DNA of 64,000 nucleotides, from the NCBI GenBank assembly GCA_033439295.1, contig JAVTLE010000016.1, forward strand, positions 868,001-932,000, given 5' to 3'. Made by a program: the position numbers and the translations under genes. A model generated the notes under the pieces. That model worked only from the letters and a program-made list of their open reading frames with translations, was not told where the DNA came from and did no database searches. Within the stretch, counting starts at the first letter, position 1; each line of letters opens with the position of its first letter. This document shows, piece by piece, positions 186 to 62,800 of this stretch. This stretch comes from Deuterostichococcus epilithicus. Lineage: Eukaryota; Chlorophyta; Trebouxiophyceae; Prasiolales; Stichococcaceae.

Positions 186-3100
186 GTGGTGCTGACGACC
201 AAGTCGATGGAGGAGGCGGGCCCGAACGAGCTGCCGGTGTCGTATCAGCGGCTGCCGCAGATGGTGGAGGTGGGCGACACCATCTTCCTGGGGCGCTACC
301 TCGTCACAGGCGCCGATGAGTCCTCGTTGTTCATGGAGGTGGGCGAGCCTCCTTCCTTGAGCTGACACATATTACGACACACATTGGCTGGTTCTGTCCT
401 TTCATTTGGAAGCGCCTCAGCACAGAGACAGTTCACATTTGCTCCTGTGATCAGAGAGCGGCATCAGCAGCAGCTGCTCTGTGTATGGCTTGCAGCCGCT
501 GCTTTTTACCATCACTTCCTGCTGGTGCTGGCAGCCCGTGAAGCTAGGCTTTAACCAGCCGCCTCGAGGTTATCAAGGTGTTGGCACCTGGTGATGGCCG
601 GCCGGCACCTGCAGCTTCGCGGCGCCGGGTGGTCTCGCTTCGTCCTCTGCCGACGTTCCGACATCCCCTCTGCCAGTATACGACCCAGCCCCTCATTGCC
701 CGATCCTTTACGCACAGGTGTCGGAGATCACAGGGACGGATGTCGTCTGCATTGCGCGCAACGAGGCGGTTCTGGGCGGCCTGCTGACGGTGTTCCACAC
801 CGAACGCTCTGCCAGCAGCCTCACGAACCTGCAGAACGAGCTGCCGGTGAGGGCGCGGCCCCTTGCCATGTGTTGACCGAGTCCCCAGACGGTTGCCTTG
901 CACAGGTAGCATGATGTGCAAAGATGTGCAGCAATGACAGACAACATCAAAGCCGCCGACCGTGCTGTGCACCGGCCCGGCGCCGTGCAGCCTTGAGGAA
1001 GGAGGCGTCCAGCCTGCTTCAGCAGGATCATCCGCCCCGCCGCCGCTGCGGTGCTGACACGCAGTCAAAACCCCCCGTACCCGACCCGCCGTCGCACCAG
1101 CCAAGTCATGTCAAGTCTTCTTCAACACCTTTGTTTCTTCTCCAAACCCTTCCCATGAACGTGAAACCCTGGGCAGGTGCTGCACGACCTGGACAAGGAG
1201 GCGCTCAAGGAGCTGTCGGCGGACTACGAGATCGACTTCCTGAGCCTGTCCTTCTGCCGGAGCGCCGATGACGTCAACGACGCGCGCGCCTTCCTGCGCA
1301 GTGTCGGCCTCACGTCCACCAAGGTGCGCGGCGCTCTCCTGGGCAGTGCGTGGCGCTCCCTGGGCGTGGTGCTGCAGGCTGGCGCAGCGTCAGCGTGCCA
1401 GCACCCAGGGTGCAGACCCTCCCCTGCTGCCCAGCTGCTCTCGACAAGGTGGCGGCCGGCCGATTGAACGGTCAATTCCCCGGATGACCACAGACACGTC
1501 GCTGGCGCTGTCGCAGCAGCTCATCGGGGGCTGATGTTGCCGTCCTGAACATTCGCCGAGCACACCATTCGTGCTGCGCAGGTGCTGGCCAAGTTCGAGT
1601 CGCGGCAGTCGCTGTTCAACTTCAAGGGCATTGCCGCGGCGTCGGACGGCGTCATCATGTCACGCGGCAACCTGGGCCTTGACGTGGTGCCCGAGAAGAT
1701 GGCCCTCATCCAGAAGGTGGGGAGAAGTTCTGGGCAGGGTCCGTGCTGCTTCACCCGCGCTTGCGGGGCACAGTGCAAACCGCAGCGTCGTGCATGCTGT
1801 GGTCCTTCTGGCTGTTGAGGGCTTCTGCACATATGGGAGGTGTGGCAGCAGCTGCTGCATCGGCGTCTGCGCTGCTTGATGCGACTGAGCGACAGTGTCG
1901 CCGACATGTGCCGAGGTGTACCCCAACCCCTGCTGCAGGCCATGATTGCCAACTGTAACATCCTGGGCAAGCCGGTCATCATCACCCGCCTGGTCGACAC
2001 CATGGGCACCAGCCCCCGCCCCACCAGGTGCTGTCTGCGATCCCGGATGTCTATCTCGCGTTCTGCACCAAAAACGAGGCTCTGTCAGCAATGCTGTGCT
2101 GTACAACTCTGTGCACAAGGCCGACGTGCGTCTGCCCGCAGGGCGGCGGAGGCCGCACGTGTGCGCCCAGTGCGGTGATGGAAGGCGCAGACGCGCTCCT
2201 GCTGTGCACGCGAGCCTTTGTTGGCCTTTGCTGACAAGAAGCATCTTGCTCGACACTGCCCAGGGCGGAGGCGACTGACGTGGCCAACGCGGTGATGGAC
2301 GGAGCGGACGCATTCCTGCTGGGCGCGGAAACGCTGCGGGGCACGCACCCGGTGCTCACCGTGTCCACCATACTGTCCATCGCGCGCCAGGCGGAGGCGG
2401 TGTTTGACCACACCCACCACTTCGACCACCTCATGGCGGTGCGCTGCTGCCTGCCTGACTCAAGCTTTCAGTACATCAAATTTAAAGAAGATGCCCTTCC
2501 ATGTTGCCTGTGCAGGTGTAGGTGATACCGCTTGCTGCTGCTGCTGCTTGGTAGCTCTGCTCACCGTCTCAGCGCCGAAGCCGGCCGCAGCCTGTGGGGG
2601 AGGAATGCGGTGGGGCAAAGCACCGGCGGCGGTGCCCGCCACATGCTAGGACACGTGCACGCCCTGCCTGTCGCGTGCTGAAACTGCTGACACTGGTCGA
2701 ACCTGGTGCTGACATGTCGCGCCGCTGTGGCCCGAAGGAGGCGCTCATCGCAGAGCGGGAGGGCAACGACGAGGGCGTCGGCCACAGCGAGTCCCAGGGC
2801 AGCATCCACTCTGACACGCTGCCGGCCAACTCGCTGCCGCCCGGCTACGCATCCACCAGTGAGCGGACTGAAACCTAAGCCCGTCTGTCAGACTGCGTCA
2901 CTTGGCCGAGTTGGCGCTCCGTAGTATCCCGGCCGGCGGCGGCGCTTCTGGCCATGCTTGCCGCCCCGTGGACATTGCTAGGACAGGCGTCCGGCTGGGG
3001 GCTGCGCCTGACATATTCTGCTGCACACCCGGCCCAGAGCGGGCCTCTGACAGTTCAGCATCCCTCGGAAAAGGGCTGAAGCCATGGGTGAAGATCTCCA

Positions 3101-5815
3101 ACCCTGGCAGCCGCCCACCAAACTTTTAAGGCCCACAGCCGCGGCTCAGAGCTCGTGCGCAGCTCGTTCCGTGCATCGCAGGCCGTGTCATTCCTCATTG
3201 GCATTGACTCCTTGTGCCGTGGCTGGCCACAGCCTCCGGCAGACTCAGTCGCTCTCCCTCCGGCGCCGCTGCCTCCCCCAAATCGTCTGGTGAGGCGCTC
3301 TGCCGCCGCACAGCGCCGATGACCTACTGCCAAAGGGCTTTCGAGCTTGTCATGATCACCCTCCATCGTTCAGCTGCCTATGCGGACCAGGGCGGAATGG
3401 CAAGGGGGCTACCCAGGGCTGCGCTGTTGGCCCAGTGCCCACCTTTGGCTCTGCGTGTGCACGCCCAGCCATCCAGTCTGCTGACGAACTGTCCTTGCGC
3501 GCGACTCGAAGATGGAGGTGCATCACCGCAGGCACGCTGCGGCATATGGGCTCGGGCGTCAACTTCGGCTCCATGGGCAACGTTCTGAAGCAGTCGGCCA
3601 CGCCCTTCCTGTCACGCCAGGTGCAAATCTTTCCTTGCAGACATGGTTGCAGAGAGTCCGAAACTCTGTACCTCGCCCTCCGCCCAAGATTTCAACTTCA
3701 TCTTTTTGCCCGCCTGTTTTGTTGGCGATTTCCGAGGGTAGCCTGGGCCTCCGCCTGTGAGTGCAGTGCTCTCAAGGCGCTGTCAATCCCGTGCGTGACC
3801 TCGTTGCTGACCCATGATCAACTCAGTGGGCCCGCTGTTTGTCTGTGCGGCTCGGTTACGCAATTTGGTGCAGCCGCGTTACGCCCACATGTGTCAGGAT
3901 CACATGGCGGCATGCCTCGTATCTACTTGCAGGAGGCGATCGCATCATCGGCAGTTCGCGCCGCAGACAAGGTGGCTGCTTCCCTCATCATCGTCTACAC
4001 GCAGACTGGTGCGCCCGCATGGCGTCCAATCTTCCCGGTGCCTCGTATCACATCCATACAAGCGCCAGCATGCGAACATCGCGGCAAGGCCTCGGGGATC
4101 GTATGTCATGGTGCTGTCATTGGCCACATGGCAAACCCGACAAGCGAAGCTGTCTGTAGGCATGTGAATGCTACTGGAGCCGATGTGCACTCGACTGCTG
4201 ATCAGGAATGTGCTGCTCAATGCAGGGCACACCGCCAGCCTGGTGTCAAAGTACAGGCAAGCCCCCCTTGTCCGGATTGCTGGATGCGCCGCTGATGCCT
4301 TGCGATGCTCGCAACCCTGCTTCAGCCATGTGACAGCCTCCGCACATAACTGCTGAATTTGCTGAATGACAATGCTTCGCATCAGCTTGCGGCTGCGGCC
4401 TCGTCCACCGACTGTGCAGCGAATCAGACTCCCTGGTGATTCCTCGGCGAAGTCGTGGAAAAGGTGCACTTGTGCAAGCTCCCTGTTTTCCACATGTGGT
4501 GCCGCTGACGGCGGGTGTGTGTGCGAACGCCGCAGGCCGCCGATGCCCATCCTGACGCTGGTGGTGCCACAGCTGAGGAGCAACGGCCTGTCGTGGCGGC
4601 TCACCGGGCGGTCCACTGCGCGCCACTGCCTCGTGGAGCGGGGTCTGCTGCCAGTGCTGGCGGCGCCCTCCCCCTCCGGTGCACCCTTTTGCCAGGGTTT
4701 GGCGTGCGCAGCCGCAGCATGCAGGCGCCTCACTGCAGCACGCGGCGGCTGGCATCGGGCACAGCGCTGCTGCAGGGACGGGATAGCCAGGGCCCGTTGC
4801 TGCGCGCTCACAGGAGCGCCAGCCCAGTCCCCGGCGCCAGCAGGCCTGCGGCGAAGCAAGGCCATAGCTGCCGCCACGTGCGCCAGGTCCAGACTTCACC
4901 GCAGGCGGTGGCATCTTGTTCACTCTGCACTGCAGGCGAGACGCTGCTGGAGGAGGCCATCGAGATGACCGCCTCCTGGGGCCTCGTCAAGCCGGACGAC
5001 CACATCGTGTGCGTGCAGCAGATCCACGACAGCTTCGTGATCAGTGAGTTGCAGTCGCCCTCAGTCGGCCCGCACCAACCCTGCATCATGCAGTCATCAC
5101 CCCCCCGCCGGGGCCGCCCNCCCGCCCGCCTGCCTGCCTGCCTGCCTGCTGCCTGCTGCCTGCTTTTGCCTGCAGACCGTGCTGCACAGTGTTTGTGTCT
5201 GATCTCTACGGCAGGACAGCCCTGCGCGGCAGCTGTTGTGTGTACTGGAACGGCGCCTGACGGTGCACATGCGGGTGCCCTGGTGCAGAGATCGTGTCTG
5301 TGGACTCAGTAGGCCACGGCATCGCCAGCATCCGCCCACAGTCTCTCGTCAACCTCATGAAGGTACGCAGTGATTGCTCCTGCTGCTGCTGCTGCTGCGG
5401 CTGCGATGTAAAGAGTCTGTTTTAGCTTTTAGAGGAAGGGGGCCGCGCTCACCAGCCGCCCTTGATGCACGAAATTCATTGCAACGAGTTGTCGGGCAGC
5501 GCGCTGGCGGCGGATTCCCAATTCTGCGACAGTTCATCCTGGAATACTGACCACTGTCGCTCACTGGATAGCCGCGCCTGGCCGCTGGCTTGGTGCCTGG
5601 ACAGTGCTGCTGTTGGTGCTGCTGACAGTGTCTGCCTGCCTAAAACCTCGGTCCTTTGCCTGCAGGCGGGCGCGAAGGGCGATGAAGATCCGCGGGCGCT
5701 CAAGCACACGTTATCGCGGCTGCCGTCCAAGAACCTCGGCCATCAGCTGCCCGCCGGTGTGCAGGTGCGGCCAATGTGCCAGCCAGTGACAGCTGGCAAT
5801 GCAGCAGTTGCCTGA
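186..5815 (+). CDS. Pyruvate kinase (5' end lies before the window)
   Basis: Pyruvate kinase converts phosphoenolpyruvate and ADP to pyruvate and ATP, the last step of glycolysis. Exons read directly: 186-338, 718-846, 1177-1323, 1582-1716, 1939-2027, 2264-2438, about 2738-2850, 3933-4008, 4226-4256, 4536-4678, 4936-5043, 5289-5362, 5666-5815. Family blocks appear in order: [20 protein letters not shown], a KFES...[10 protein letters not shown] block, then [27 protein letters not shown] (split over two exons), [22 protein letters not shown], and [11 protein letters not shown] across a GC-AG intron. The N-terminal barrel strands are upstream of the window. The link between the TLRG exon and the SSAVRAAD exon (about 2850-3620) contains Ser/Pro-rich sequence and a GSGVNFGSM / SATPFLSR exon whose phase I could not close. 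The exons after 4936 are less typical of the family. Plastid versus cytosolic form cannot be judged without the N terminus. Confidence 0.88.
2135..2201 (+). repeat. Decayed partial copy of the pyruvate kinase exon that starts at 2264
   Basis: The acceptor CCCGCAG and about 60 bases after it match the working acceptor CCCAG and the exon start about 123 bp downstream (GGCGGAGGC ... GCGGTGATGGAAGGCGCAGACGC against GCGGTGATGGACGGAGCGGACGC). Indels shift the frame. If spliced from the donor at 2027/2028 the copy reads [12 protein letters not shown]-stop. It could act as a poison exon or be a dead relic. Confidence 0.7.
5127..5172 (+). repeat. Short TGCC/CTGC microsatellite in a pyruvate kinase intron
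   Basis: Runs of CCTG and CTGC lie just downstream of the ambiguous base N at 5120, inside the intron between 5043 and 5289. The N probably marks an unresolved length in this simple-sequence tract. Confidence 0.7.
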
Positions 5816-8526: not shown

Positions 8527-10032
8527 TTTGCTGATCGCAAGAGACAAAAGCAGCGGCGTGCGCGACGGTTCGCAGCTACAGTTGAACTGGCTGAGCGGAG
8601 GATGTTGTGAGCTTCTCCCACTTGGAACGGTAACCGCGACTGCTATTCGTGAGCCAGGCTCGCAGTTTGCGCACAGCAAGCACGCGCCGGCAGCAAGGGG
8701 CATTGAAGTTCAAATTCGTGAAGTCAGGGGCCGGATGGGAAACCCGCCCCCGTTGCTCAATTGCATTTATTGAAGGTAAGCTGCTCGGGTGCTCGCCTTT
8801 GCAGGCTCGACTTTCGCCCTGACACTCTGTGAATTCTGGAACGATCATTCAGCTAGGCGCACCACCGGAGGGCTGCAGCGTCTGCCTAACACACTTTGCT
8901 GCAGCCTGATCTGCGTGTAACTGCTGAGTTGGTCTGAGACGGCAGGCCAGCAGCTCTAGCCAGCACCAGTCGCGCAGTCTCTGTACATGACCCTTGCAGC
9001 CCTGCCGGTGGATCTGCAATGAACGACAGGCAGAAATCTCTCGCAATCACAATCGGTGTATCCTATGCCGCTGGCGTCGCGAGCGGTTGGTTTCTGAACA
9101 GATTTGCGCGCAAGGTCTGGTCCTGAGGCAACGTGATATGTTGCGTGAAGTTCCCGATTCTACAGTGCTCCTGCAGGTCAGGCATGTGCTCCGTCTCCAA
9201 GAATCTCCATGTGCACCGTGCCGGCTGCGGCTGGCAAATTCCAAGTTCATCGCTGACATGGGCCTCATTCCTGGCTGCAGTGCATCAAGCGATGGGCAAA
9301 CTACCTGTCGTCCTCGTCGTCAAGCTTGTAGCAGCGATCCACCCCCGAATTTGGTAAGATCGCTGACCATGCGCCGCTGTTGTGGGCGGCTGGCATGCTT
9401 ATCATTATTGTCAGGAACATCTCGTCGTCAACCCATGCCGTTTGATGAGGAGTAAGTCCTGCTTGCAGGATGCGGGTGAAGCCGGTGGACCGAGGTTGGG
9501 CCGAGTGCAAACTCTCGAGTGGGGGAAAAGGGTCAGGAAAATCAAGGTGCGCAGCTGGTCATTGTGCAAGAAAAAAATGTTTTGGTTTCTGGTTTTGCAA
9601 CCGCAGGCTCCTGTGAACGACACAGGGTTGTATTCAGTGCAGGAAGTGCCACAGCGGTTTCACTTGTGCCAGTCAGCTTTGTAATAGGGCTCCCGAATGC
9701 AGTCCGCCTGAAATGCTGTCCTGCTCTGGAAACCATCAATTTGCTTTGCTCGGGTTCCAAAATGCCAGGTCAAAAATAGGGACACATGACTGCATACCAG
9801 CCAGGTGCATGACAAAGCTTCCACTACCAAAGCTATACCAGAATGTTGAGATAATAGTAAGCGTTGACAAAGCCTCGCAAGACTGCCTTGACATATATAC
9901 ATGAAGATACGCTTCGCCGATGTGTCTTGCGGCCAAGCTATCCGGGGTCGGCAGTCGGAGGCGACGGCGGCCCGCCGGGCGGTGGCGGCTTGCCAAGCAC
10001 GTTGAGAATGGCAGCGATCAGCTGGTCCCGCG
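8527..10032. other. About 1.5 kb with no confirmed gene
   Basis: Upstream of flavodoxin (-) and downstream of expansin gene A (-). The part next to 8527 should hold the flavodoxin promoter. The only coding hint is a 35-codon frame at 9019-9126, listed separately. The stretch 9500-9950 is AT-richer than its surroundings and no conserved protein is visible in it. Confidence 0.5.
9019..9126 (+). CDS. Possible small membrane protein or first exon
   Basis: A 35-residue frame begins MNDRQKSLAITIGVSYAAG and ends NRFARKVWS before TGA. Residues about 8-27 are hydrophobic with Gly/Ala spacing, like one transmembrane helix followed by a basic end (positive-inside pattern). A possible donor (AAG|GTCTGG) precedes the stop, so this could be exon 1 of something longer. 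A later frame containing LLWAAGMLIIIVRN (about 9370-9415) is another hydrophobic piece. I do not recognise the family, and chance is not excluded. Confidence 0.25.
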   Translation: MNDRQKSLAITIGVSYAAGVASGWFLNRFARKVWS

Positions 10033-16515: not shown

Positions 16516-19500
16516 CTACAACATTGTGGCCATAGCCGAGCAGCCTGCACGACGTGCACTACAGCATCAGCAGGCGATTGCCTGATGCGGCAAGCGCATC
16601 TTTGGTAGCAGAATGTCAAAGTGCTGCAGCAGCTGAGGCAACCTGACAACCAGAAGCATCAGCCGGTCAAAGTGACTTAGCATGCCATGGCGCATCCTGG
16701 CGATGCGCATGCCATGCACATCTTGCTGCGACTTCTGCAGGTGGCATTGGCGAGCGCTGGCGACAATTTCCAGCTCACCTTGCTCGTAGGCGCCGCCGCC
16801 GGCCTGGCAGCAGGCCTCCTTGGAGGGCCATACAGGGGTGCCCTGCTCCAGGGTGGCATTGCCGGGGCCGTCCCAGTAGCGCGCGCAGACCGTCATGTTC
16901 TCCTCGCACCTGCGGACGCAAGGCAACCTGGCATCGGGTACCAGTCCATATGTGCCAGAGGCTGGGGTGCCAGAGGCTGGGGGCAACAACGGAGCAGGAG
17001 CCTCAGGTGTGCCGTCATATAAAGCAAGAGCGGGACTGCCAGAAGCAGAAAAGCCTGTGCCGGAAGTCCCCTCCCCGGTCCTGGTGCTTCCTCTACATAC
17101 TGCAGCGGATGCCAGGGTTGGGACGCGTCACAAGCCCGAGCGTTTCAACGATCGAAGGGTAGGCGCTCACGTGGCAAAGCCATGCTTGGTGGCGGGCACC
17201 CAGCAGCCCAGGTCGCACTCCTTGCGCGGCGGCGTCGCAACGACGGCATGCCGCATGCGGGCCGCGTAGTGCCGGATGATGTCGAAGGTGGAGTGCTCCG
17301 GGCGGACTCCATATTCGCCAGGCCCCACGCCCAGATACACCTGCACATCCCATCGCCAGAACAGCGCTCCCCGCAGGATCTTGCCCCTGCGGCGCAGAGG
17401 GCCAGTCAATATCAGCACGAGTAGTAGCACAGCAAATCGAACATGGACCCCACCCAGGTACAGCTTCACGTCCCACCGGCAGAACAGCGCAGCACAGGAT
17501 CTTGCCCCTGCGCTGCGGAACCAGCCGTGTCGAGTGCTGCAGGGTGATGTGATGGCAGTTTTCGCGAGCATGCGCACATGCATTTTTGGCTCTTGGTGAG
17601 AATGCCTGGGCCTGCAACTGAAGCCTAAAGCGGCATGCAGCGTGCAGAGCTTGCAGCCGGAACCCTGGCTGCCGCGCGGTCCGAGCACGAGACCGCTGCG
17701 GCAGCAGCCTCAGAGCGCCATGCACCAGGAAAAGGGACCCTCTGGTGGCAGCTCTGCATTATTCTCAGTGGAGGTGAGGGCGCACGCAAAGACGGAGTCC
17801 ATGGTGACGCCGGTCATGGCCTCGTACACGGGGTTGCGCTTCTTCTCGATCATGCCCTTCACAAAGTCCTTCTCCCACACGATCTTGCCGAACTCCTCCA
17901 GCAGCAGAGGCTTCCCCGTGTTGGCCTCTGCATCCTCCATGTGGTCCGTGACCCACTTGACCAAGAACTTCTTCTGCTTCCTGCAGCCAGGCAACAGGCG
18001 GCGTGGGGGCCGTCAGGACGGCAGCTGCGGCGCAGCGCGTGACGCAGCCACTATTTGATGTGCCATCGATCGTCGAGTGTGTCCCCACTGCCGCATGATC
18101 GTGCTGCGCAATGCGCGTGTTGTTGCAAAGCACCGGTGCATGCCGCTGCAATGCACACATGCGCTTGGGTCCTGGAGGTGGTGGACAGCAGGCGCCCAGC
18201 GCAGCCGCAGGCATTGTGACCGGCACCGTGGTGGGTGGCAGAAGTGCACTGGAATGGAGTGGAATGTAGTCGAACGTGCGGTGCGGTGGGGAAAAACTCA
18301 CATCTCCCAGTTGTCGGGCCACACGTGGATGCCGCCAAAGTCGATGCCCTTAGCGTTGGTGTTGTTCGTGAAGTCCTGCCCTGTCTGCGTCGCCCACCTG
18401 CGCAGATGCGAAAAGCCCGCCTGTTGAATCAGCTGCACCAGGACTTTGTCCTACCAGCACCTCTGATTGACGCCACTGCGCACGCACGAGCCGTATTGTG
18501 AGAAGCATCCCACCCTTGATGCAGTCACGCCAACTGCGCAGCCGCGCAACTATCACTATCACCCGTGCACAGGTGCAAAGCAGCAGCAGCAGCAGCGTGC
18601 CCGTCATGGGATCGTGAAAAGCAGGTGCAGCGCACCGAGAAGCGGGCATCTGGGGGTTGTCGTCGGCGCGCGGGTTCTCAGCGCCCCAGAAGCCCTCGCC
18701 ACCAGAGGTGACCAGGTGGTTGGGGTCCAGCTCCTTCATGTATGCTGCCATCTCCCCGATCCACGCCGGCAGGCTGTCCACGCACTCCGGCACCTGCCAG
18801 CAGGTTTGAGACTGTTTCAGGGACGCAGCACCGAGGTGAACACCCAGGGCGGCGCCACCATCTCCCGTCTTATGCCAGCAGGTTGTCATGCACTCCCGCC
18901 ATCTGCCGGCACTGTCAGGGACCAGGACGAGCCCTGCTCGCATCTAACCCTTTGAGCGTGCACTGCAAACTTGTTGAGCGCACATCCCCTCCAGCTGGCA
19001 TGGCAGTTGACACAGCCTGTGGCCGACGCCAGCGTCCCCTAAGAGAAACAGCAGCGCGGCGGACAGGGGGCGCGCACCCGCCAGGTCTCGCAGCGGGGCT
19101 CGTTGACCAGGTCCCAGGCGAAGATGGTGGCATCGTCCTTGTACTTGCGCCCGCTGATGGAGTTGGTGCGCTCCACCAGCGTCCTGCGGCGGTGTGTGGG
19201 GGCAATATGACGAGCGGTGCTTCGAAGACCAACAATCGATGTGGAAACAGCCGCATGGGAGGTTGCAGCTGATCGTGCTACAGTGGATGGGGGACAGCCG
19301 CTGGGAACAGGAGCAACTGCATGTACGTGGTGTCAAGCAGCACATGCGCAGCAGCTGCCGCTGTCAGGTGGCTGCCGGTTTCGGAGGACGTTCGGGTTTC
19401 GAGGGCAGGCGGGGCCGCACTTGAGGTGGTTTTTGTACAGGGACTTGCAGCCATCGTCGGACCAGAACACCGTGTGGCGCTCCACCTCATAGTCCTTCGT

Positions 19501-22286: not shown

Positions 22287-25200
22287 ATGGGCTGCACCGC
22301 CAGCAGGCCCGAGAGCAAGTCCAAGCGGACCAGCACAGCAGCTGACGGCAGTACCTCCGAGCCGGCGGGCCTGGCCACAGCGCAGCTGCTAGATCAGGCC
22401 TCGTCTTCAGATGCAGCAGCGCGCCGCGCAGCCCTCGCGGCCGCGGTGCAGGGTAAGCAGCCAAAACCCTCACGTGCGCCGCCGCCGCCACACCGAAGCA
22501 CCGCCAACAATCCGCTGTGGCGCTCCAGCAATGAGGCCAGGCGCTCTCTCCACGCCGTGCCCGCCAGCAAGGGCGACTCGTCGTGGGACTGGGTGGTGGG
22601 GCAGGACGGCGGGAGCCACGGCGGCAGCAGCCGGGGGCCTGGTGCGCAAGTGCAGCCGGGCGGCAGCGGCAGCTGGGGCCTCAGGCCGATGCGGCGGTCC
22701 ACAGACTTGAACAGCGTACGCGCATCATCATGTGAGTGGCTTCATAAGACAGTGCGCCTGCAGGGATCTCGCCTGCACGGTTTTCCTGCTGGGAGGAGTT
22801 CTAGTCCTGCGAAGTGTTGTTGTGCGGGTGTCTGTTGGTGCTATGAGGAAGGACGGGCTCCTCGAAACGGAGAGAACAGACAGTTTTACTTGCAGATCTG
22901 TGCTGCTGCAGATGTTGGATGTTTAGCATCCTGGTTTGAATTGCTGCAACGAGCTTGACTTATATGATTGGCGATGCTGAGAATTCAGGGGCCTCGCTGC
23001 TTGTTTTCGCAGTGCCCACGATGGGATTCATGCCGCGCCAGCGCGACTCCTCGCTGTTCAGGGTCACCGATCAGCGCCGCCCGGCGCCTGTCAGGTGAGC
23101 CGTCTGCCTGATCAAGCAGGCATGGAAGCACCCCCAAAATATCGGATGGCTGAAGTTCTGCTCCTTTGACTCCGGCGTGATGCCATGCAACGACCTGAGC
23201 CGCTGCAGAGATGCGACTTTGCAGGGAGACGCGCCGCATCAGGGCGGCAACGCTGGCCGGCGTGTCGCTCTTCAACCAGTACTTGGTACGAGATGTGGCG
23301 GAAAGTTTCATCCCGACCACGTGTTGATGTGGGAGCGCACAGTCCCCTGGTCTGCAGCTCCTGTGCTCCATGCCGCTACCTCGTCTGGCCAACACACGAA
23401 TCCACATAGCACTGTCCTCATCTTTAATGCGTGAGGTGATCGATTACCTGGGGGAGGGCAGCAGCGGCCGCGTGTACCTGTGCATGGACATCCACGACAG
23501 CCACCTATACGCGGTGAAGGTGCAGTACCATAGCAGCACCCTGGACCGCCTGCAACCGTGCCGCTGTTGTCGTGCACCTTCATGTCTTCTACTCGGAGCA
23601 CTTGCATTGTCACCGGCCATCATTTCCCAAGCTCCTCATCGACAACACCATGCACACTGCGGATCTTGCACCGACAGCTGACATGTGGAAGCTTTCCATG
23701 CGGTCTCCGAGCAGACCAACAGCGGCATCGCACATGCCGACCATGCCGTCTGCAGTCCTTGCCAACCGCCCCGCTCTGCCACTGCAGGTGCTGTTGAAGG
23801 AGGAGCTGTGCTGGCGACACAGCCGGCTGGCGTCTGCCGGTTCCGATAGCCTGGCGGACCTGCGGCGCGAGATCTCCGTCATGCGCACGCTGCGGCACCG
23901 CAACATCGTGTCCCTGCGCGAGGTGGCTGCTCTGGGCTGCATTGCGTTTGCTTGCCGGCTGTTGCCAGGGACCTTTCCTGACCCGCTGGTGCTGCATCGG
24001 GGCCACCCACCACTCCACCTGTTGAAACTTCCGAACGCAAGCACAAGACGTAATGCCATTCTGCTGCTGCAGGTGGTGGCGGACCAAGGCCAGGTCCTGC
24101 TGGCGCTACAGTACATGGATGGCTCCGCTCCCTCACCTCAGCATTGAACTGCAGGGTTACAACATCGAAAACCCTGCCGCAGGTCGTAGAGGACGAGGGC
24201 CAGATCCTGCTGGTGCTGGAGTGCATGGCGGGCTGCGATCCCTCACCTTGTTAGCATCATTCAATTCAATTAGACTCTCACTTTGACCACATCGAAAACC
24301 CTGCCGCAGGTCGTGGAGAACGAGGGCCGGATCCTGCTGGTGCTGGAGCACATGGAGGGCGGCCCCGCCTCACAATGACTAGAACTCTTGACCGGAACAT
24401 CCGGCAGTCACCTGCAAGCTTGGCCCGGTTCCGCCGCGCAGGTGGTGGAGGACGAGGGCCAGATCCTGCTGGTGCTGGAGCACATGGAGGGCGGTCCGGT
24501 GCTGTGCCGTGAGGCGCTGGCTGCCGGCGCGAAGCTGCCGGAGGAGCTGGCCCGCACCTACTTCCGCGACATGTGCAAGGTGTCAGGCTCCCTGCAGCGG
24601 CCCCGCTCTGGTCAGCACCTGCTTTGGCAACACATCGGCTGACGTGCGTATTGGGAGAGGCTCGCCCACATTCGCCTCCACAGCACACCGTGCATCAAGG
24701 GCGCTTTCGAGGTTGGGCAGCACTATGTGTGCGGCCAGCTGTCCATCCTACCCTGTGCCGTGCGCTGGCGCGCATCGTGACTGGCGCACAAGGGACTGCA
24801 CCGAGTCGGGCATCGGCCGAGTGTTGCAGCATGCAGCATAGCCGCATGGAACTGGGTGTTCCAATGTGACGTGAGGTGCTGCCGCCACTACTGAAACAGA
24901 AATCCTTTGTGTTAAAGCTTGTCGAATTGAATTGATTGTAAATATTACATATCATGAGTATGTTGTCGCTGTTGCCGCAGGCTGTGGACTACCTGCACCA
25001 CAAGAAGGTGGTGCACGGCGACATCAAGCCCGACAACATCCTTATATCCGCTAGCGGCGCCGTCACGGGTGCGCGCGGGGCTGGGGTGCCGCTCTGCCGC
25101 ATCCAGCACGGCGCATTTGTCCCGGCAGAGAGGCAGCACGCTGCTGTTGGTTCGACTCCCTCGATGACGATCAACAAGGGTAGTCCAGAATGCCGTACCG

Positions 25201-28200
25201 GGTGGCGCCGCACCAGGTCGGCAGTGAGCTTCGTGATCAATGCCATGCAGTGAGCGACTTTGGGTGCGCAACGCGCGGCAAGGGCGTTCAGAGCCGCTCG
25301 TCAGGGACGCCGGCCTTCCTTGCGCCAGAGATGATGGTCCCCAACGCCCGGTATAGGTGTGTGAGCGCGGCGGCATCCTGCGCACATCATTACATAAACC
25401 TTGCTGGACTCGACCGCGCTGAGCAGTTGTCTTGTCAGGCTCGAGGCCGGGACTGAAGTGCCGCTTGCCGCAGCGACACCCCGGTTCGCAAGAGCCGAGA
25501 ACGTGCATATGCCCAGCGCTTGTCGTTCCACGACAACCTGCAGCGCCAGCAGACCAGCCCGCGTTGCGGTAACAGAGTCCCTTCCCCGCCACCAATCTGG
25601 CAGCGCTTCTGCATCGTGTCGCAGGGGCCGCCCCACAGACGTCTACGCCCTCGGCGCGTGCCTGTACACCTTCGTGTATGGCAGGATCCCGGTGAGTGCG
25701 CGTGTCAGGCGCCCGCACGACAGAAGCATCCAACGAAAGCCCAAAAGCCTGACAGAGGAGCTTCATGTCAGGAGCCTTCCTTGATCCACGCACCAAGTTC
25801 GGTCATGCTAGTTAGGAGGGCCGTGACCAGAAGCAGAGCGAGGCTGCTGCGGACTGCTGCCCTCCAGGTTCCAGCCTCGAATCTAGCCGTTTTCAGCAGC
25901 CGAGGGAACCTGGGTCGACGCCGCATCCAGACCAACTTTGCCAACCGTGCCTCCTGCCAGTGCAGTTCAATGCGGAGTCCATCTCGGAGCCCTTCCGCGT
26001 GGTGCGCAGCCAGCCGCTGGAGTTTCCGGCGGATGCGCACACCTCGCCGCAGCTGCGCGACCTGCTCACCCGCATGCTCGACAAGGTGCGGGTGCGGGAC
26101 GGAGCATTAGCGTTTTAGGGTTTCAATGCCTGCGGCTACGCTGCAATGCAGTCAGCCGCGCTGCATCAGGTTGGAGTAAAGTTCCCACTCCTGCCTTCTC
26201 GGTCGTCACAAGGCGAGGTCTGCGGCCCTGCATTCCCAGCCGCCCACGTCTCGCAATGCACCTGCCGGAGGCTGACTCTGTTGCCGGGCGCGCGGTTCAT
26301 GAAACGCTTGGGCTTGGCCAAGCTGTTGCTGTCAGTCATTGTTGTATAACCCCATAACCTTGCGCCCCTGCCACAGGACCCCAAGACCCGAATGCCACTC
26401 AAGGCCGTCATGGCGCATCCCTGGGTCACCTGCGGCGGCGCAGCGCCGCTGCGATCTGTGCGCGATATGCTCGAGGAGGCCGCGCCGAGCGGCCCGACAG
26501 TGCTGGGACCTGAGGGCGGCAACAGGAGCAGCGTCGTCGGCAATGGCTCCAGCGGTGGCAACGGCTCTGGCGGCAGCCGGCTGCCGGACCTCATGCAGAC
26601 CATGAACGTGTGCGACGTGCTGCCGCAGGTGACGAGCGGTCGTATCCAGAGTGGGAACGGAAGGCTCAATCAAGATCTCCTTCATCCTAGCTGTTGCGAG
26701 TGGTCAAGCCATCTGCCGTCGCCACAGTGATAGAGGCTGCTGCCATCGCCGACGGCAGGCCGCGCAGGACCCACCGCACGGCCCGCCAGCGCTTCGTTCA
26801 CCTGTCGAAGCACACGACGCGGCCTGAAACCTCTTACCACCCCTGCCCGCCACAGGACTTCCTGCCGCTGCTGCTGCCGGCGGAGGTGCGGGTGCGCGCC
26901 TTCCAGCCCGGCGAGTACCTCATGTTCCAGGACGACCCGGGTGCGCCTTCTGGTTTTTGGCTTCCTTATTGGAAGGCAGAAGGAAGGAAGATTCTGGGAA
27001 GACAGACATGCAAGGAGCCTCCGGACAGCCGCCTGCTGCGTCTCGCATGCCTGTTCACCAATGGGCTGCCGCATCACTCGGACCAGTTCTGCATGCCCGG
27101 GTGCGGTCGCACGTGGGTGCAGGCCCTGCGGTGCTCGCCTAGGGCTGCCGGCGCATCCGGTTCCGTATGCCCGGGTGCGGTCGCACGTGGGTGCAGGCCC
27201 TGCGGTGCTCGCCTAGGGCTGCCGGCGCATCCGGTTCCGTATGCCCGGGTGCGGTCGCACGTGGGTGCAGGCCCTGCGGTGCTTGCCTAGGGCTGCCGGC
27301 GCATCCGCGACAGGGCATTTCCGGGCCTGCTCGGTGCAAGTATGGGGCAGCAGCCTCTGGTGCACAGCGGGAGGTCAGTGAGCCAGATTCACTGTCGCGC
27401 CTCACTGGTGGCTGTGGCTTAAGGGTTCGTACCTTGTGCCATGCAGCGGACTGCGCCATGTTCATTCTGGAGGGTCATGCGGAGGTGCTGCTGTGGGTGC
27501 CGCGCCCCCACGACGAGGTCGATGACGCCGACGGCAGCCCCATCGACTCCAACGCCCGCTCGCAGGTCTCGTCTTCTGCTCTCTGAAAGTCACGAGTTTA
27601 CAGAAGCACAAGTCAACTGGCAGAGTAACTCGGAGCATTCGTTGCTATGTTAATTTTGTCATGCCATGATGTGCGTTGGTCTGCAGCGCCCTGGCAACCG
27701 CGAGGTGATGAATGTGCCTAACATGCATGATCGAGACTTGCTGCTCGCGCAGCAATCAGCCCCCGACCCAGACGGCCGCCAAACGCGGTCCGCCGACTGG
27801 CAGTGCGGCCCCACCAATCGCCAGCGTCCCACCTGGCCTTGCGCATGTGAGGCGTCCCAGCTTCTCTTATATTGCTCGTTTGACTGCCAGCCTGCTGCAT
27901 CAGTTTCGATCAACCCAATGGCGTTTGCGAAGCTGGCCGCCGGCTGGCCTACGGCCTGCAGGCAAGCCTGCGGCCCAATTACGCGTTGGCTGCCACGACA
28001 GCCAGGAAGGGTACAGCTTCCCATTTCCTGCATCTCGATCTTGCCAATCAAGTTTATAGTGGTTTATGCTCGTGTGCTGCAGGAGGTAGTGAAGGCGCGC
28101 GAGTACACCGGCAGCCTGCTGCGCGGGCCGCGAGAGTTCCTCGTGGCCGTGCGTGGCCCGGGGCAGACCGTCGGCGAGATGGCGCTGCTGGCGGCGACGG

Positions 28201-35003: not shown

Positions 35004-35078
35004 TGCTCCCCTGCACAGGCGGGAACATCCACCTGAACCTGGAATGGATCCGCCCTGCGCTGCAGGAGCGCAAACACT
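35004..35078. repeat. Left block of dispersed repeat, copy A
   Basis: Begins TGCTCCCCTGCACAGGCGGG and matches 37735-37793 closely (one or two changes per ten bases). In copy A it is separated from the right block by about 940 bases. Confidence 0.8.
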
Positions 35079-36019: not shown

Positions 36020-36250
36020 GCAAGCCATGACCCAGTGAGCATGCACAACAAGCCTGCGCCGCTCAGAGAGCGCTGCAATGTGTACACCCTGATGTGCAAA
36101 TCAGCCAAACACCAGCACATGAAAATTCCTGAGTGATCCCGACAGCGGGCGGCGATCCGTTGAGCTTGGCAGGAACGGAGGCCAAGCCCCGCATAGGCCT
36201 CTTCTCCAGGTCGAGCTGGTCCCCTTCCCTCAGACCATGCTTTTGCCTCA
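36020..36250. repeat. Right block of dispersed repeat, copy A
   Basis: Matches 37809-38040, including AGTGAGC(A/G)TGCA(C/G)AACAAGCC and ACAGCGGGCGGCGA. The matching part at 38020-38040 is the end of the last coding exon of the PMP3-like gene, and the TGA stop is conserved here, so copy A carries a truncated 3' end of that gene. Confidence 0.85.
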
Positions 36251-36350
36251 CGAATCGGCAACATGATGCTCTCGTATGGGCAGGCCGGTGTTTGTGTCCT
36301 CAACGTCTGCGGTGCCTAGCCAAATTGGCGCGCCGCCTGATCCCATCCGG

Positions 36351-37734: not shown

Positions 37735-38040
37735 CACAAGCGGGGACATCCACCTGAACCTGGAATGGCTTGACTGAGGGGAGCGCAACCACTGACTTGA
37801 TGTCGTTGGCAAGCCCATCACCCAGTGAGCGTGCAGAACAAGCCCGCGCCGCTCAGCAAGCGCTGCCATGTGTACACCCTGATGGTACAGACCACCAAAA
37901 CACAAGCACCTGAAAGATTGGAGTGCTCCCAACAGCGGGCGGCGACCTGTGGAGCTTAGCAGGAAGAGAGGCCAAGCACGGGCCTCTCCTCCAGATCGCC
38001 GAGCTGTTTCCCCTTTCCATCAGACCTTGCTGTTGCCTCC
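37735..38040. repeat. Dispersed repeat, copy B (contiguous)
   Basis: Both blocks of the repeat lie together here, separated by only about 15 bases (37794-37808), and overlap the 3' UTR and last codons of the PMP3-like gene. Copy A at 35004-36250 is the split version. Confidence 0.8.
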
Positions 38041-38991: not shown

Positions 38992-39628
38992 GTTGGCGCC
39001 AGAAACGTGGGAATTCTCCTCAGGAGTCAGGTTTCCAAGCTGATGGTGCAGCAGTGTGCGACTGTCCAGCCTGCACACGGAAGCCGACTGTGAGAGCTTA
39101 GGTTTTGTTGGGACTCAACGTTCAATGCATGTTGCTGGATACGCGACTGGCCGCATGCCACTCCATCCTGCAGGTATGCATCGAAATGCAGAGTGTGGCG
39201 CGACCAGCCGCGTGCATGAGGTGAGCGGCAGTGCCTGTTGGAGTGAGACTTGCAGAAGGTGTCGAAGAGGAAACGCCGTGACCACGCACCACGCAAGAGA
39301 GCGCCACGTCTGAGCAGCTGGCTAGGACAGCTCTGCGCACACAGTTATGCTGCAAAGGTAAGATGAACTGCCCAGCGGGAGTTCCGGAAGATTATGCCTG
39401 CTGGTAATGGATGCTATCAGCAAAGCCTAACGCCACTAGCTCTGGATCAGCCACGTCGAAGCAGGGTTTTATCGAGTCGACAATTCGTCGTGAAGTGTCG
39501 GCACGCATTTACAGCACCGCTGTCTTTGAGTACCAGGTTCCACAGACGAGGCAACCGAACGTGCTTCATCAGCTGCTGCAGCCGAACGACAGCCCGAGCA
39601 GGGCCTTGGACACAGCTCTCAGCACATC
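38992..39628. promoter_or_regulatory. Divergent upstream region of PMP3-like (-) and ClpC (+)
   Basis: 637 bases between two oppositely directed starts; expected to contain both promoters. No motif is recognised. Confidence 0.45.
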
Positions 39629-53808: not shown

Positions 53809-56800
53809 ATGGAGGTCATGCAGCTGTACAGCGTGCTGGCAGCCACTCTCAGTGCTGATGCGACGCAGCGTCAGGCCGCAGAGGCGACCCTCAAGCAGGT
53901 ACAATCTCCTGCGGGGACGCCTCTTCCAGCGGGCAATGGTCAGGTTGCAGGCAGGCACTCTTGACCACTGTATGGCCAGCTTATTTTTATCATACATTTT
54001 AGATGCCTGGCAGCAAAACCCCGACAGGGAAAGAATGTGCAGCCACAGATGCTGTCCGCCGCGGCATTCTACGCCAGCTTTTCCAGCGAGTCGTCCAAAG
54101 GACACGAACCTTGCAAGATGTGTTGCATTGATGGTGCATTCGGCAGTTGACCTTGAGGTGGGCTGCAAGTCCGCCGCAAGCTGTCGCGATCGATGTCATA
54201 TGCGCCAAGCAGACGGCGCTAAATGCAGATCTGCAAAGATCGACTACAATAATGTCCTTGAAACCACTGTCAAAACTCTCCAGAGCCGCCAGCATGCAGC
54301 AACAGCACCCCATTGAAGCTGATCGACTGAAATATCATGGCGCCGGCGAGGCGGCGGCAGCACATTGTGATATGCTGTCCGGTACCTGGCGTGCAGCACG
54401 AGCACACGCCGGGGCAGCTGACCAACCTGCTGCGGGTAGCGGTGGAGGAGTCTGTGGACGCCGCGGTGCGGCAGGTCGCCGCGATCACCTTCAAGAACCT
54501 GGTCAAGGCTGACTGGGACGTGCGCGGTGAGGCTGCCAACCGCACGACCCCTGACAAATTGCTGAATGCAAAGGCTGCGGTGCAGCATGCGGCTCCAATG
54601 TCGGGAATGCAGGTCGCCTTTATGTCACTTCAAGAACCTGGTCAAGGCTGACTGGGACGTTCGCGATGCCGCTGGCCGCTGTCACTCCTGGTAAAGCTTT
54701 TCCATGTAAAGGCTGCGGTGCGGCGTGCGGCTAGTATTCAGAGGAAGTACACCGGGGTGGATCTGCTATCTTCGCGGCCGCGCAGAGGAGGGCAGGGACA
54801 GCCCGCTGGCGGAGGCTGACAAGGCGGCCGTGCGGGAGAACCTGTTGGAGGGCATTGTGCGGGCGCCGCACGTCATACAGGCGCAGCTGGGCGAGTGCGC
54901 CAAGTACGTGGTGTATGCAGACTACCCAGAGCGCTGGCCGTCGCTGCTGCCGGCCGTCGTGGCGCACCTGGCCACCCAGGTGGGCGCGAATGGGGCCTGG
55001 TTGATGCAACAGAGCGGTGGGTCTGCCCCCAGGAGGATGTCTGGGCTCCCGCCTGAGCAGGGGATCTAGAGCGCGGAACCCAGAAGAGTGCATCCCTTCA
55101 GCAGACGATGATATGTGACACTGCGGATGGGGAGCCTGCTGGCTATGAAGGCAGAGCTTGCGCTGACGCTGCGAGGCTGGTTCAACGAGATCCATGGCCA
55201 TAGCAAGGTGGTGGGTCGTCCCTCTGTGGTGCAGGAGCAGCAGCGGCTGTACGGCGGGCTGCTGCTGCTGCGGCTGCTGGCACGCAAGTACGAGTTCAAG
55301 GACGAAGACGAGCGCGAGCCGCTGGCGCACATCGTGTCCGCCACCTTCCCGCCGTTGTTGGCCATCTTCCAGGTGTGGGATGGACCCTCCAGCGTGCGTT
55401 CCAACGTGCTGTTTACTTTGTTGGGTGCCGCAGGTCGGCACATACCTGGCCGCCGAAGCGGCCAGATCCTCTGCTGCTGTTGGTGCAGGGGGAGGCGCTG
55501 CTGGCGGCAGGAATAGTGATGCTGTGCATCAAACCGTGCAGGGCTTCGGCCGTCCTGCCGACATAGTGTGTGCTCGCCCCGAACAGGAATGTGGTGGTCA
55601 GAGACCCCGCCACATTCCGCACGCAGGCGCTGTTGGCGGCGGGCAGCCCGGCGGTGGAGGTGGCGGAGCTGCTGAAGCTGGTGTGCAAGACCTTTTGGAG
55701 CGCCACCTACATGGAGATACCCGCGCAGCTGTGCGAGCCGGCGCAGTTTGGCGGCTGGATGACCGCGCTACACACTTTCGTCATGCAGCCCGTGCCCGAG
55801 GTGGGACATGGGCAAATATCATCATGTTATCAGTGTCTTTTTGGGGCGCAGGGTGGCGGCCTCGCAGCTGTGCGCTTCCGCTTTTGGTTACTGCCTCGTC
55901 CCGCAGCCCGGCCCATGTCGGGGGTGCGGGGGCCCTTGCAGTATGCGCGGTCCTGGGGCTGGCTGGCAGAGTGCGCCTGGGTCGAAGCCTTGTGGCAACC
56001 AGCGCGGGACGGGGGCTGCCGCCCGCAACCAGGAGACGAATCAGTGCAGATTTTGCGGCTCTGCATACATGGAGGTCGAGTGCTGCCGCAGCTGCGAGTC
56101 GCGCAGCTGTGGCCGCCTCAGCAGCTGCTGCGCCCTCTCTGGCACTGCCCTGTGTGTCTCGCCCTGTGACAACGTGCTTGGGGCACCACACCGACGCAAT
56201 GTTACTCTACCCATGCATGTTTTGGAGGTCCATGTCGACCTGGTGCTGCTGCATCCGCAGCAAGGGCAGCCGGAGGACACCCGACAGCGGCAGGCGTGGC
56301 CCTGGTGGAAGGCCAAGAAGTGGGCGCTGCACATCAGCCACCGGCTGTTCAACCGGTACGGGGACCCGAAGAAGTGCGGGTCCGACAGCCCCGACGCGGC
56401 CTTTGCTGCGCAATTCCGGGACCAGTGCACAGTCAAGTTTCTGGAGGCGCACGCTGCGCTGCTGGGGCGCTACGCAGAGGTGAGGTTCTCGATTGAAGCT
56501 GTCCACCAAGCTCTCGACAGCTCTTCTCCCTACACAAGGCCGTGCAGACGAGGGTGGCCGTCTGGCCGTGCATGGCGTCAGCTGTTTTGATTCGTTGTTG
56601 AGACCAGCACCCAGGCTGGATGCTGTGCGCCTGGCTGCGGATGGCTGTCCATGCGCTTGCGGGTGGCCGTCCTGCAACTGCCCAGGGCATAGCTGCAAAG
56701 GCATGCCCGCGGCTGGCGCAGCAGGGTCTGGTTGCCTCAGTGGCGCGGCACGGATTCCTCGACGCCTGCGCTGAATCTTCCCTTACACAATGCATCGTGG

Positions 56801-59800: not shown

Positions 59801-62800
59801 TTGCGCCCCCTGCTGGTGTCGCATGCAGCCGCCGCAGAGATGTACGATGCCGCTGTTGCCTGCGCATCTTCGATTGAGAGTGTCTTTTCGCAAGGCCGTG
59901 AGGGTCGACAGGGCTGCCTGTCAAATGCTGCGGTGAGCCTGCTCTTGCACTGCCAAGGTCGCCTTCTGTCTGTTTGTCTTGGTCTTTGCCTTTGTAGCAC
60001 GTCTCGACACACTGCTGTTCACCGCTGTGCAGCTGGAGGAGGTGGTCTTCCCCATTATGCAGCGCATGATCAGCTCCGACGGTCAGGACGTCTTCGAGGA
60101 GGTGCGTTCGTGTTGTGGCAGTACATGGTTGGCGGTTCGCGGGCCAGCACTCAGGCTCGCTGCCAGGACTGTCACAGCTCGAGGGCTCGGCCTCCGGCCG
60201 GACATACAAGGCGATCAGGCTGCCCAGTGCCCACACCAGTGTAAAAGGCCTGCTATCCACTGATGGGCATATCTATCTAGATACAGGCTTAGACCGCAAA
60301 GCCACCGCTGGGGCTAGCCTGAAGTCTGAATCGTCATTGCAGGTGATGGCGCTGCTGTATCCTTCAGCTACTGCCGGTCATCAGCCTTTGGCCAATGGTG
60401 AAGGCCAAATCCTTCACCCTCGTCAGCGCAGGTGCTAGAGCTGCTGGCGTACTTCACCTACTGCTCCCCGGTTATCAGCCCGCGGCTGTGGAGCCTGTGG
60501 CCGCAGCTGGTGGCCTGCCTGCAGGGCTGGGCCGTCGACTTCTTCGAGAATGTCCTGGTGGTGCTGGACAACTTCATATCCCGCGACACCGAGGCGTTCC
60601 TGGCGGGAAAGCAGCCCGACTACCTGGCCTCGGTTAACCAGGTGTGCAGCTGTTCGTACTTCCTAACACCCCTGCTGTTTTTGCTCTTGTGCTACTCTCT
60701 GCCTCTAAACCATCTCTGCGACTCACTTGCCCACTCAATGCAGCTGTCAAGACCAGCTCTAGGTTGATCGAGCCGCCGCCTGTGATGATATGCTTTTGTT
60801 ACACACTCCGAGCCCTTCGTAACGAAGAGCATTCGTGACGAGCAATAGCGGATTTCTCTGAGGCACGGCTGCACACTTCCTTTGCATTGTCTTGTCACAT
60901 TGCCGCGGGTTGGACCCACACCAGCCAACACATTTGTCTGACAAACCCCATGACAAATGCCCTATGTTGGCTTGTTTCGGTGCAGATTGCAGAGCGCTTC
61001 CTTACTGACGAGAACGTGGACGATGCGGACGTCATCTGCGCGCCCAAGCTCATGGAGGTGGTCCTGCAGAACTGCCGCGGCCGCGTCGACGCCTGCGTCG
61101 GGCCCTACCTGCAGCTGGCGCTTCGGCGGCTGGCCGCCTCCCAGAAGAAGCTCATGCAGGCGCGGGGCTCCTGCACCAGGCATCGCTTGCATGCCACTGC
61201 TCCTCTGTGCGCTGCGCGCTACGTTGCAGCAGGCACCGCCGTGCATCCTCCCCGTGCATTCACCATCGGCTGCTGAGGGAAATTTGAAACCTGCTGGATC
61301 GAGGTGCTAGAGGGAATCCTGAGTCCCCTGAAACTTGCCGCGCCGCGCACAGGACCTGCTGCTGAACGTGGTTGCGAGCGCGTTCTTTTACAACGCGCCG
61401 CTGGCGATGGCGGCGCTGCAGGCCGCCGGCGCGGTGCAGCCCGCGTTCACCGCCTGGCTGGCCGGCATCAATGGCTCCGGCAAGCGATTCCGCCGCCTGT
61501 ACGACAAGAAGGTGCGTAAATATGATATAATAAAAACATTGCTCGATGAGCCGTCGCCCGTCGCCCCAAGTGCCAGGCAGGCCATGCACGTGCGCTTCCC
61601 CGGATGGCTCAGGCTTCATGGTCCACAGAGGTGCATGACCTTGCCACCTGGGGTCTGTCGCATTCTCACCCGGCCGCCGTCCACGGGTGCTTGCGGCGGC
61701 GGCTGCGGGCGGACTTGCCTCCTGCAGCAAGTGAGCTCACGCCGCGGTGCGCCTCCATGAGTGCAGGTGCAGGTGCTGGGGCTGCTGGCGGTGCTGACGC
61801 TCCCGGATGGGGACATGGCGCCAGAGGTGGCTGCGGGGGCGCCCGACATCCTGGCAGCAGTCGTCAAGCTGCTGTCCGCCTACCGGGAACAGCAGGCGAG
61901 TTGACGCCGTCCATGTGCCGGCATCTCCCCTGACCTCCAACCCTTTCGCTCTGTGCGACGGGACGGCTTGGCAGCCTCCGCATGAGCCTCCACCAGCTGC
62001 AGGCAGCGGCGATTGGTGGGCTCATGGACCTGCGCACCACATGACACTTGTGCGCAGCATGTCGGTTGCTCAACGACGTGTGAAACCAAAGCCATTCCCT
62101 CCTCTTTTCTGGTGTGCAGACGCTGGCGGAGCTGGACAGCAGCGACGACGGCAGCGTGGAGGACAGCGAGCTCGACTCCGACGAGGGGGAGGACGTCGAC
62201 TTTGACGAGGTGCAGCGGCGGCGACGGCTTTCCCTCGCAAACTGCGCGTCTGCGCCGTGGGCTTGCTGCAGCTGCGACATCGCACGTCGCCAGGACGGCC
62301 CGCTCAAGGCTGTGACAGCCTGTGCCTGCCGCTCTGTTCCATCGGAGTGAGCAGCATCAGCGGTGGCACTAGATGTGGCTGCGAACGCGCTGCAACTTGC
62401 CGCCGCCGTCGCTTGACGCTGACGCTTGACGCTGCTGCCGCGCCGCGCGCAGATTGACGCGCGGGAGGCGGGGGCGAGCGGCAACGGTGGCCTGGGCGAC
62501 GACGAGGACGAGACAGAGGAGGACAGCAGCGCCTACCTCGAGCGCCTCGCCCGCATCCGCGAGCGCGCGAAGGTGCCCGCGGCAATGCTCTGCCTGCCCT
62601 CCCTGCCCGGCCCACATGGCCGTTGATGCTCCGTGGAGGAAGATGGCAATGCACCTACCTGGAGCGTCTCGCCCGCATCCGCGAGCGCATAGTGTGGCTG
62701 CCTCGGCGTGCCTCGCCGTCGTGCCCGGCCGCGGCTCGAAGTTGACACTTGGTGTCGCACAGGCGGGCGGCGGCCACGAGGAGAGCGACGACGACTCGGA

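Follow-up and report, generated by a model that had tools for sequence, protein, structure and literature searches.

Local tandem duplication features in the closest described systems, and the comparisons made here follow excerpts of the respective reports. A tandem genomic duplication spanning an acceptor is reported to have produced a new intron in a single potato gene, RdRp (PMC4974935). In Drosophila, exonic duplications at AG/GY proto-splice sites gave rise to introns at new positions, and each of the 18 sequences of such introns is reported to hold a premature stop (PMC2891723). Tandem exon duplication generates local exon copies with intron flanks, including mutually exclusive exons (PMC6071210), and small tandem duplications from break repair are described as more common than any other short (<100 bp) insertion in the human genome (PMC8355091).

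The exon-edge copies that we describe here in the green alga Deuterostichococcus epilithicus share something with each of these systems. Like the potato duplication, they probably include tandem duplications spanning an acceptor; as in Drosophila, tandem duplication in coding genes appears to be tolerated via splicing; and they are local tandem exon copies with intron flanks, in direct orientation like the break-repair products. However, the algal copies lie within predicted introns that already exist; at least 25 edges are affected, with no sign of a new intron, in contrast to the one gene described for potato, and no introns at new positions of the Drosophila kind were found. Whereas mutually exclusive exons are whole, in frame and under coding constraint, the algal copies hold only 32 to 113 nt of the exon, appear to drift neutrally and would break the frame or introduce a stop. 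Their units, mostly 100 to 155 bp, are larger than those of the break-repair duplications, and the mechanism that produced them is putative. A search of the open-licence literature recognised no genome-wide account of such a pattern in a green alga.

The window, i.e., the whole stretch of DNA that was analysed, comprises 64,000 nt (assembly GCA_033439295.1, contig JAVTLE010000016.1, positions 868,001 to 932,000, forward strand). Genes were delineated with a self-trained gene model, and family names were checked with Pfam. The original prediction placed partial copies of exon edges at six sites, and all six indeed carry a partial direct copy within the flanking intron, each beside its own exon, with start-to-start spacings of 110 to 139 between neighbouring copies. 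Acceptor-side copies are found in the pyruvate kinase, “mannanase” and kinase genes and donor-side copies in two importin loci. The kinase copies are present in the intron as predicted but number three rather than two, and the name “mannanase” found no backing, as a Pfam search of that gene model returned no families. The features are as follows.

2132..2210, + strand: decayed acceptor-side copy in the pyruvate kinase gene, spacing 117-122, within intron 2028-2263
2264..2438, + strand: working pyruvate kinase exon (gene model; PF00224), source of the copy
17445..17519, - strand: decayed acceptor-side copy, from the 5′ edge of exon 17171-17386 of the “mannanase” gene (repeat alignment)
17171..17386, - strand: working exon of the “mannanase” gene (gene model)
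24059..24123, + strand: kinase copy 1, acceptor side of exon 24442-24579 (repeat alignment)
24159..24246, + strand: kinase copy 2 (exon-edge match at 24178-24233), with an intron tail like that of copy 3
24286..24373, + strand: kinase copy 3, which matches the working exon edge at 93% identity across 61 nt (24305-24365)
24442..24579, + strand: working kinase exon, VVEDEGQILLVLEHMEGG... (gene model; PF00069)
54471..54608, + strand: first (working) unit of a tandem duplication of ~139 nt at importin exon 54337-54526 (alignment; PF03810; homologues)
54609..54732, + strand: second importin unit, decayed and intronic, with the donor GT lost and a one-base frame shift
62516..62635, + strand: first (working) unit at importin exon 62453-62572, comprising exon end, donor and 63 nt of intron (gene model; alignment)
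62636..62754, + strand: second unit, a decayed donor-side copy that fills most of intron 62573-62762
27083..27307, + strand: intron-only array with three units of 74 nt at 95-97% identity, a tandem duplication touching no predicted exon (comparison case)

The pyruvate kinase copy keeps a CAG acceptor, which scores 13.3 vs 6.9 for the working one. The importin unit 54471-54608 consists of the exon end, the donor and 82 nt of intron and starts at exonic GCAGGTCGCC; this pair was not caught by the automatic filter and was entered manually. The repeat 40293/40699, which is coding in both copies and is not an exon-edge copy, we take to be the double N-domain of a ClpC-like protein.

Exon-edge copies recur well beyond the window. 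In a combined sample of 264 kb (the window plus 200 kb from the same genome), 25 distinct edges are copied, on both the acceptor and the donor side, which amounts to 3.6% of edges and 23 of 350 predicted introns. The window contributes 4 of these edges from its 64 kb and the 200-kb sample the other 21, so the window is not special. The tabulated set comprises 29 pairs: 17 acceptor-side rows (15 edges) and 12 donor-side rows (10 edges). One doubtful row (spacing 74) was retained among them; kinase copy 3 and the importin pair 54471/54609 stand outside the set; and coding-repeat, whole-exon and intergenic rows were left out of the count. Edge copies outnumber independent intron-only loci by about 25:2, where intron-only rows within edge arrays (in the kinase and at L003 5777 and L014 7197) were not counted as independent. 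Local direct repeats at spacings of 30 to 600 are not due to chance, as the proposed comparison with shuffled controls made clear: 95 reach a score of ≥18 and 74 a score of ≥22, vs a mean of 0.33 and none, respectively, in three order-3 Markov shuffles of the 264 kb. Inverted local repeats account for 21 rows, 20 of them in one intergenic array and 1 in an intron, vs 81 pairs in the direct scan; predicted genes thus hold a single inverted local pair. Of the repeat rows more than 450 nt apart within a locus, 7 of 18 pair a predicted exon with other sequence, and all 7 come from one locus, where they look to lie in a duplicated segment. The copies are clumped, with none in 11 of 21 loci (dispersion P 0.0012). 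Introns with copies have a median length of 456 (n = 23) vs 266 for those without (n = 327; P 1e-5), a comparison in which long introns also offer more room. When the kinase block alone was searched against the 46.8-Mb genome, the one match listed was the block itself (repeat counts being lower bounds); it does not behave as an introner or dispersed intron element, with similar copies at many unrelated places.

The geometry is uniform. All 29 tabulated copies are direct and sit in the intron that touches the copied edge, acceptor-side copies upstream and donor-side copies downstream, as in tandem genomic duplication. Homology crosses the copied edge in 27 of 29; in the remaining pairs it ends 0 nt and 2 nt before the edge. 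Primary spacings number 26, i.e., 24 from the tabulated pairs (second-order values of 221, 259, 264, 289 and 369 were dropped) plus kinase copy 3 (132) and the importin pair (139); 19 fall in the range of 100 to 155, a bin picked after viewing the data, with 2 below and 5 above. In a minority of pairs most of the unit is clearly retained, with an intron part, as at L014 9140/9267 (divergence 10% in the exon part and 12% in the intron part), at 62516/62636 of the window and at importin 54471/54609. Intron-side homology exceeds the null 95th percentile in 5 of 24 pairs (5 of the 29 were skipped owing to spacer length), and an anchored intron-side test gave P<0.05 in 4 of 29; an intron-side match is absent in several less diverged pairs (L014 7353, kinase copy 2 and L003 8342). 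Among donor-side first copies (10 tabulated edges and importin 54609), 8 of 11 start 81 to 94 nt into the intron, a regularity noticed post hoc that random breakpoints do not predict.

The copied exon parts look to drift in a near-neutral manner. Divergence among the 29 pairs ranges from 10 to 34% (mean, 0.196), mismatches at the three codon positions stand at 0.158/0.187/0.244, and the AG or GT is retained in 19 of 29, about the 19 that chance would keep at that divergence. Divergence shows little trend with distance from the splice site, which does not support selection to destroy decoy sites. An origin from cDNA or spliced junctions was likewise rejected: the copy flank resembles the neighbouring exon in 1 of 29 (kinase copy 2, P 0.0075), about what chance gives in 29 tests. 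Most copies were said to be out of frame or to hit a stop, and use of the copy would lead to a frame shift or stop in 29 of 29; the insert length is a multiple of three in 4 only. Relative to AG or GT sites in introns generally, 10 of 29 copies keep a decoy splice site that scores beyond the 95th percentile, and some outscore the working site.

These strong sites bear on two readings. That the copies are used, as alternative or poison exons or as decoy sites tuning expression via nonsense-mediated decay, would agree with them and with the disruptive outcome and the scarcity of inserts in multiples of three. However, any random insert of such length would be expected to bring in stops and frame shifts, and the neutral look of the drift by codon position, along the copy and at the AG/GT argues against use, which makes this reading unlikely. 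The same 10 sites could also be kept in by-products or precursors of new introns, as in the Rogers/Hellsten model, in which introns arise when segments that contain AGGT are duplicated in tandem; the importin pair duplicates its exonic GCAGGTCGCC in tandem, and in a potato gene (PMC4974935) an intron was gained from a duplicate of the 3′ side of an intron and the 5′ side of an exon. Yet in the importin copy the frame is shifted and the donor is gone, and the claim that each duplication copies an AGGT fails at the pyruvate kinase and “mannanase” acceptors, which read CAG/GG. Neither is AG/GT enriched at copied edges overall (acceptors, 2/15 vs 71/347; donors, 6/10 vs 179/347). None of 347 introns reached the footprint score of AGGT-duplication birth, for which the intron head has to equal the downstream exon head, or the tail the upstream exon tail, in register; chance alone would yield about 1.2. 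The suggestion that the copies create introns is therefore highly improbable.

A process that pastes the exon edge only, e.g., by template switching or from a spliced-RNA template, with a spacer that is no copy, would suit the many pairs, some less diverged ones included, that lack intron-side homology, the shortfall of such homology relative to the fitted simulation below, and the donor copies starting 81 to 94 nt into the intron. A spliced-RNA copy should match the neighbouring exon beyond the edge, however, and the flanks do not; some units contain intron parts, only one inverted pair occurs within predicted genes, and simple duplication approaches the observed values once the indel rate is raised. 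We consider such edge-specific copying improbable. As for an assembly artefact, errors of that kind would be near-identical, whereas these copies differ from their source by 10 to 34% (7% for kinase copy 3), with indels and on several contigs, and we regard this as next to impossible.

The copies are probably decaying relics of tandem duplications that arose locally in the DNA, mostly in units of 100 to 155 bp, and that spanned one splice site by chance. Geometry, direct orientation, neutral-looking drift and recurrence across the sampled genome are the observations behind this reading; the choice of splice site and the mutational mechanism we infer. A duplication across a splice site would give the gene a second acceptor or a second donor. 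Provided that the working exon retains a complete site of its own and that the spliceosome takes whichever site is closest to the remainder of the exon, the added unit would do no more than lengthen the intron, so that selection would tolerate it. The extra exon half would then drift neutrally against a real exon held nearly constant, while the intron half would drift in both copies and collect indels, leaving the exon half alone recognisable. The “half-exon” look would thus be mainly a matter of ascertainment, as selection freezes the real exon and intron sequence fades faster. Repeated events would give arrays, as in the kinase with its three copies.

Simulations in which duplications were placed at random and screened with the same detector as the real data support this reading only if the events are old. 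The original prediction was to be judged by frequency relative to intronic tandem repeats, and the outcome depends on age: the edge:intron-only ratio is 0.8 to 1.3 when all ages are equally common and 1.5 to 20 for older events over ten settings, vs about 25:2 observed. Because even ages give so low a ratio, the tandem-duplication reading calls for an episode in the past or for young copies to have been lost. The fit, picked out of the ten settings, used random placement, units of 95 to 160, T 0.18 to 0.35 and indel:substitution ratios of 0.2 and 0.3; it gave, respectively, edge:intron-only ratios of 5.6 and 5.2, aligned lengths of 59 and 56 (observed, 55.7), exon divergences of 0.198 and 0.195 (observed, 0.196) and 0.23 and 0.21 gap events per mismatch (observed, 0.20). 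Intron-side homology above the null 95th percentile came to fractions of 0.52 and 0.37, vs 5/24 observed; settings with an indel ratio of 0.5 alone lower it to 0.17-0.43. In a size-spectrum simulation, in which the splice signals had to be 25/6 and then 45/35 long, the fraction within 100 to 155 was 0.27 and 0.17 for log-uniform sizes, 0.44 and 0.39 for exponential 60, 0.33 and 0.39 for exponential 40, and 0.61 and 0.54 for normal 125 ± 25. Tandem duplication leaves unexplained the size range, the missing young copies, the weak intron-side homology and the clumping. Of the proposed “ongoing genome habit”, the recurrence stands and the word ongoing is doubtful, because a constant-rate simulation puts a quarter of the detected edge events below T 0.02-0.07, whereas the lowest exon divergence is 10% in the tabulated set and 7% in kinase copy 3.

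Exon-edge copies in this alga look like ordinary tandem duplications and not like a new route to introns or exons. A tentative, broader possibility is that a duplication process favouring units of about 100 to 155 bp has been a leading source of intron lengthening, in an episode now largely ended that seeded introns with decoy splice sites in their thousands, of which many are strong. If the sampled density is general, extrapolation of 25 edges per 264 kb would give roughly 4,400 in 46.8 Mb. As a caution, surveys of “exon copies in introns” are biased to exon edges through selection on the source exon alone. Should the density hold, short tandem duplications spanning splice sites would add substantially to intron length and to the number of cryptic splice sites in a compact genome. 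They would also offer ready-made cases for testing which of two almost identical sites the spliceosome selects.

The window (G000:C14:868001-932000; 60.7% GC) comes from a 46.79-Mb genome in 21 contigs. Gene models were obtained with a simple hidden Markov gene finder, self-trained on the window and 20 sampled 10-kb stretches (264 kb); exon edges throughout are predictions. At convergence, it yielded 350 introns (median length 275; exon median 136) with the consensus donor CAG|GTGCG and acceptor YGCAG|G; the window gene models lack internal stops, which is in part built into the gene finder. Three of the four proteins submitted to Pfam had matches (pyruvate kinase; protein kinase plus cyclic-nucleotide binding; importin N-terminal plus Cse1), and the “mannanase” model had none at an E value of 0.001. 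The importin model matched Coccomyxa subellipsoidea at 53%, its best homologue at 64%, and other trebouxiophytes as well; the source is probably a green alga resembling trebouxiophytes. Alignments to the best homologues span 96 to 97% of its length, and inspection of two of these homologues by eye showed that the copy sequence is absent from both.

Partial copies of exon edges had been predicted at six places, in the genes for pyruvate kinase, “mannanase,” a kinase (two), and importin (two), and all six are present in the sequence. Local direct repeats with a score of at least 18 number 95 in the 264 kb, whereas three Markov shuffles averaged 0.33. Classed against the gene models, these include 29 pairs in which an exon edge is copied in the flanking intron, representing 25 distinct edges in 23 introns; adding the importin pair 54471/54609, missed by the filter, brings the edges to 26. 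Since the window contributes 4 of the 25 edges and the 200-kb sample 21, the window was no lucky pick. All 29 copies lie in the intron adjoining the copied edge, with homology that reaches this edge, crossing it in 27 cases and ending 0 and 2 nt short in the other two. This position and the near-absence of inverted local copies from predicted genes point to tandem duplication.

Only two independent duplications in the 264 kb are wholly intronic (window 27083 and 4904 in stretch L003). If selection freezes the working exon, the exon half of a duplication would diverge at rate t, and the intron half at 2t plus indels. When duplications were placed at random in simulations and the same detector was applied, old events (age parameter T of 0.18 to 0.35; indel-to-substitution ratios of 0.2 and 0.3) gave edge to intron-only ratios of 5.6 and 5.2, with aligned length, divergence, and gap rate near those observed; the ratio ranged from 1.5 to 20 across all ten settings. 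With ages spread evenly from zero, it was just 0.8 to 1.3, and a quarter of the detected edge events would be expected at T below 0.02 to 0.07, whereas exon divergence starts at 10% among the tabulated pairs (7% in kinase copy 3, outside the table). Ascertainment therefore accounts for the exon-edge bias only if young copies are also lacking; this deficit may reflect either quick loss of young identical tandem copies or a slowed process. The kinase gene model has three 74-nt units, 95 to 97% identical, within one of its introns (window 27083-27307). This array is wholly intronic and has diverged far less than the copies of exon edges; it demonstrates that units can persist while still young and be captured in an assembly.

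Several features fit less well. Intron-side homology was found in 5 of 24 pairs (five were skipped), lower than the 0.37 to 0.52 in fitted simulation settings, and in 4 of 29 in an anchored test. Donor-side first copies (from L003, L006, L012, L014, and window 54609) start at a near-constant distance, 81 to 94 nt into the intron in 8 of 11. Copies clump by locus (P = 0.0012), being absent from 11 of 21 loci, with five copied edges per 10 kb in L003 and four in L014. Unit size is 100 to 155 in 19 of 26, a concentration above that of log-uniform or exponential simulated sizes and nearer to a normal distribution of 125 ± 25. It is these four features that deserve follow-up.

Other repeats were also seen. 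Apparent tandem duplications of an exon with its flank, in which, unlike the half-exon class, both copies are coding, are found in L016 (8956-9095 / 9293-9446, spacing 339) and L021 (4697-4770 / 5033-5105, spacing 335). An intergenic array at L019 8294-8936 combines direct and inverted copies at spacings of ~72 to 76 nt and multiples thereof. Window 33723-39709, which has no predicted genes, holds direct repeats 1.8 to 2.7 kb apart with 86 to 90% identity (36025-36187 versus 37815-37977; 34996 versus 37717), possibly mobile-element remains. The diverged direct segment at L002 2069-2678 and 5263-6086, ~3.4 kb apart, is probably a duplicated gene, one copy of which was found by the gene finder.

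Mismatch in the copies is nearly even by codon position (0.158, 0.187, and 0.244), as is divergence along their length, and using a copy would cause a frame shift or stop in all 29 cases; thus, nothing suggests that the copies serve as coding sequence, even though the splice site retained in 10 of the 29 outscores 95% of intronic sites (AG or GT is retained in 19). The original prediction also proposed intron birth through duplication of an AGGT-bearing segment. AG|GT occurs at 2 of 15 copied acceptors (versus 71 of 347 introns overall) and 6 of 10 copied donors (179 of 347 overall), and the in-register footprint of such a birth was seen in none of 347 introns, although very old births would escape detection; the proposal therefore lacks support here. 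The proposed geometry is seen at a single locus, importin 54471/54609, but there the second copy is frame-shifted and its donor is lost. In earlier work, intron gain in a potato gene is reported via a duplicated intron tail and exon head (PMC4974935), and tandem duplication is viewed as a route to introns in a review (PMC3443670) and a fly study (PMC2891723). Whereas those cases concern new introns, the result in this alga is more mundane, a longer intron.
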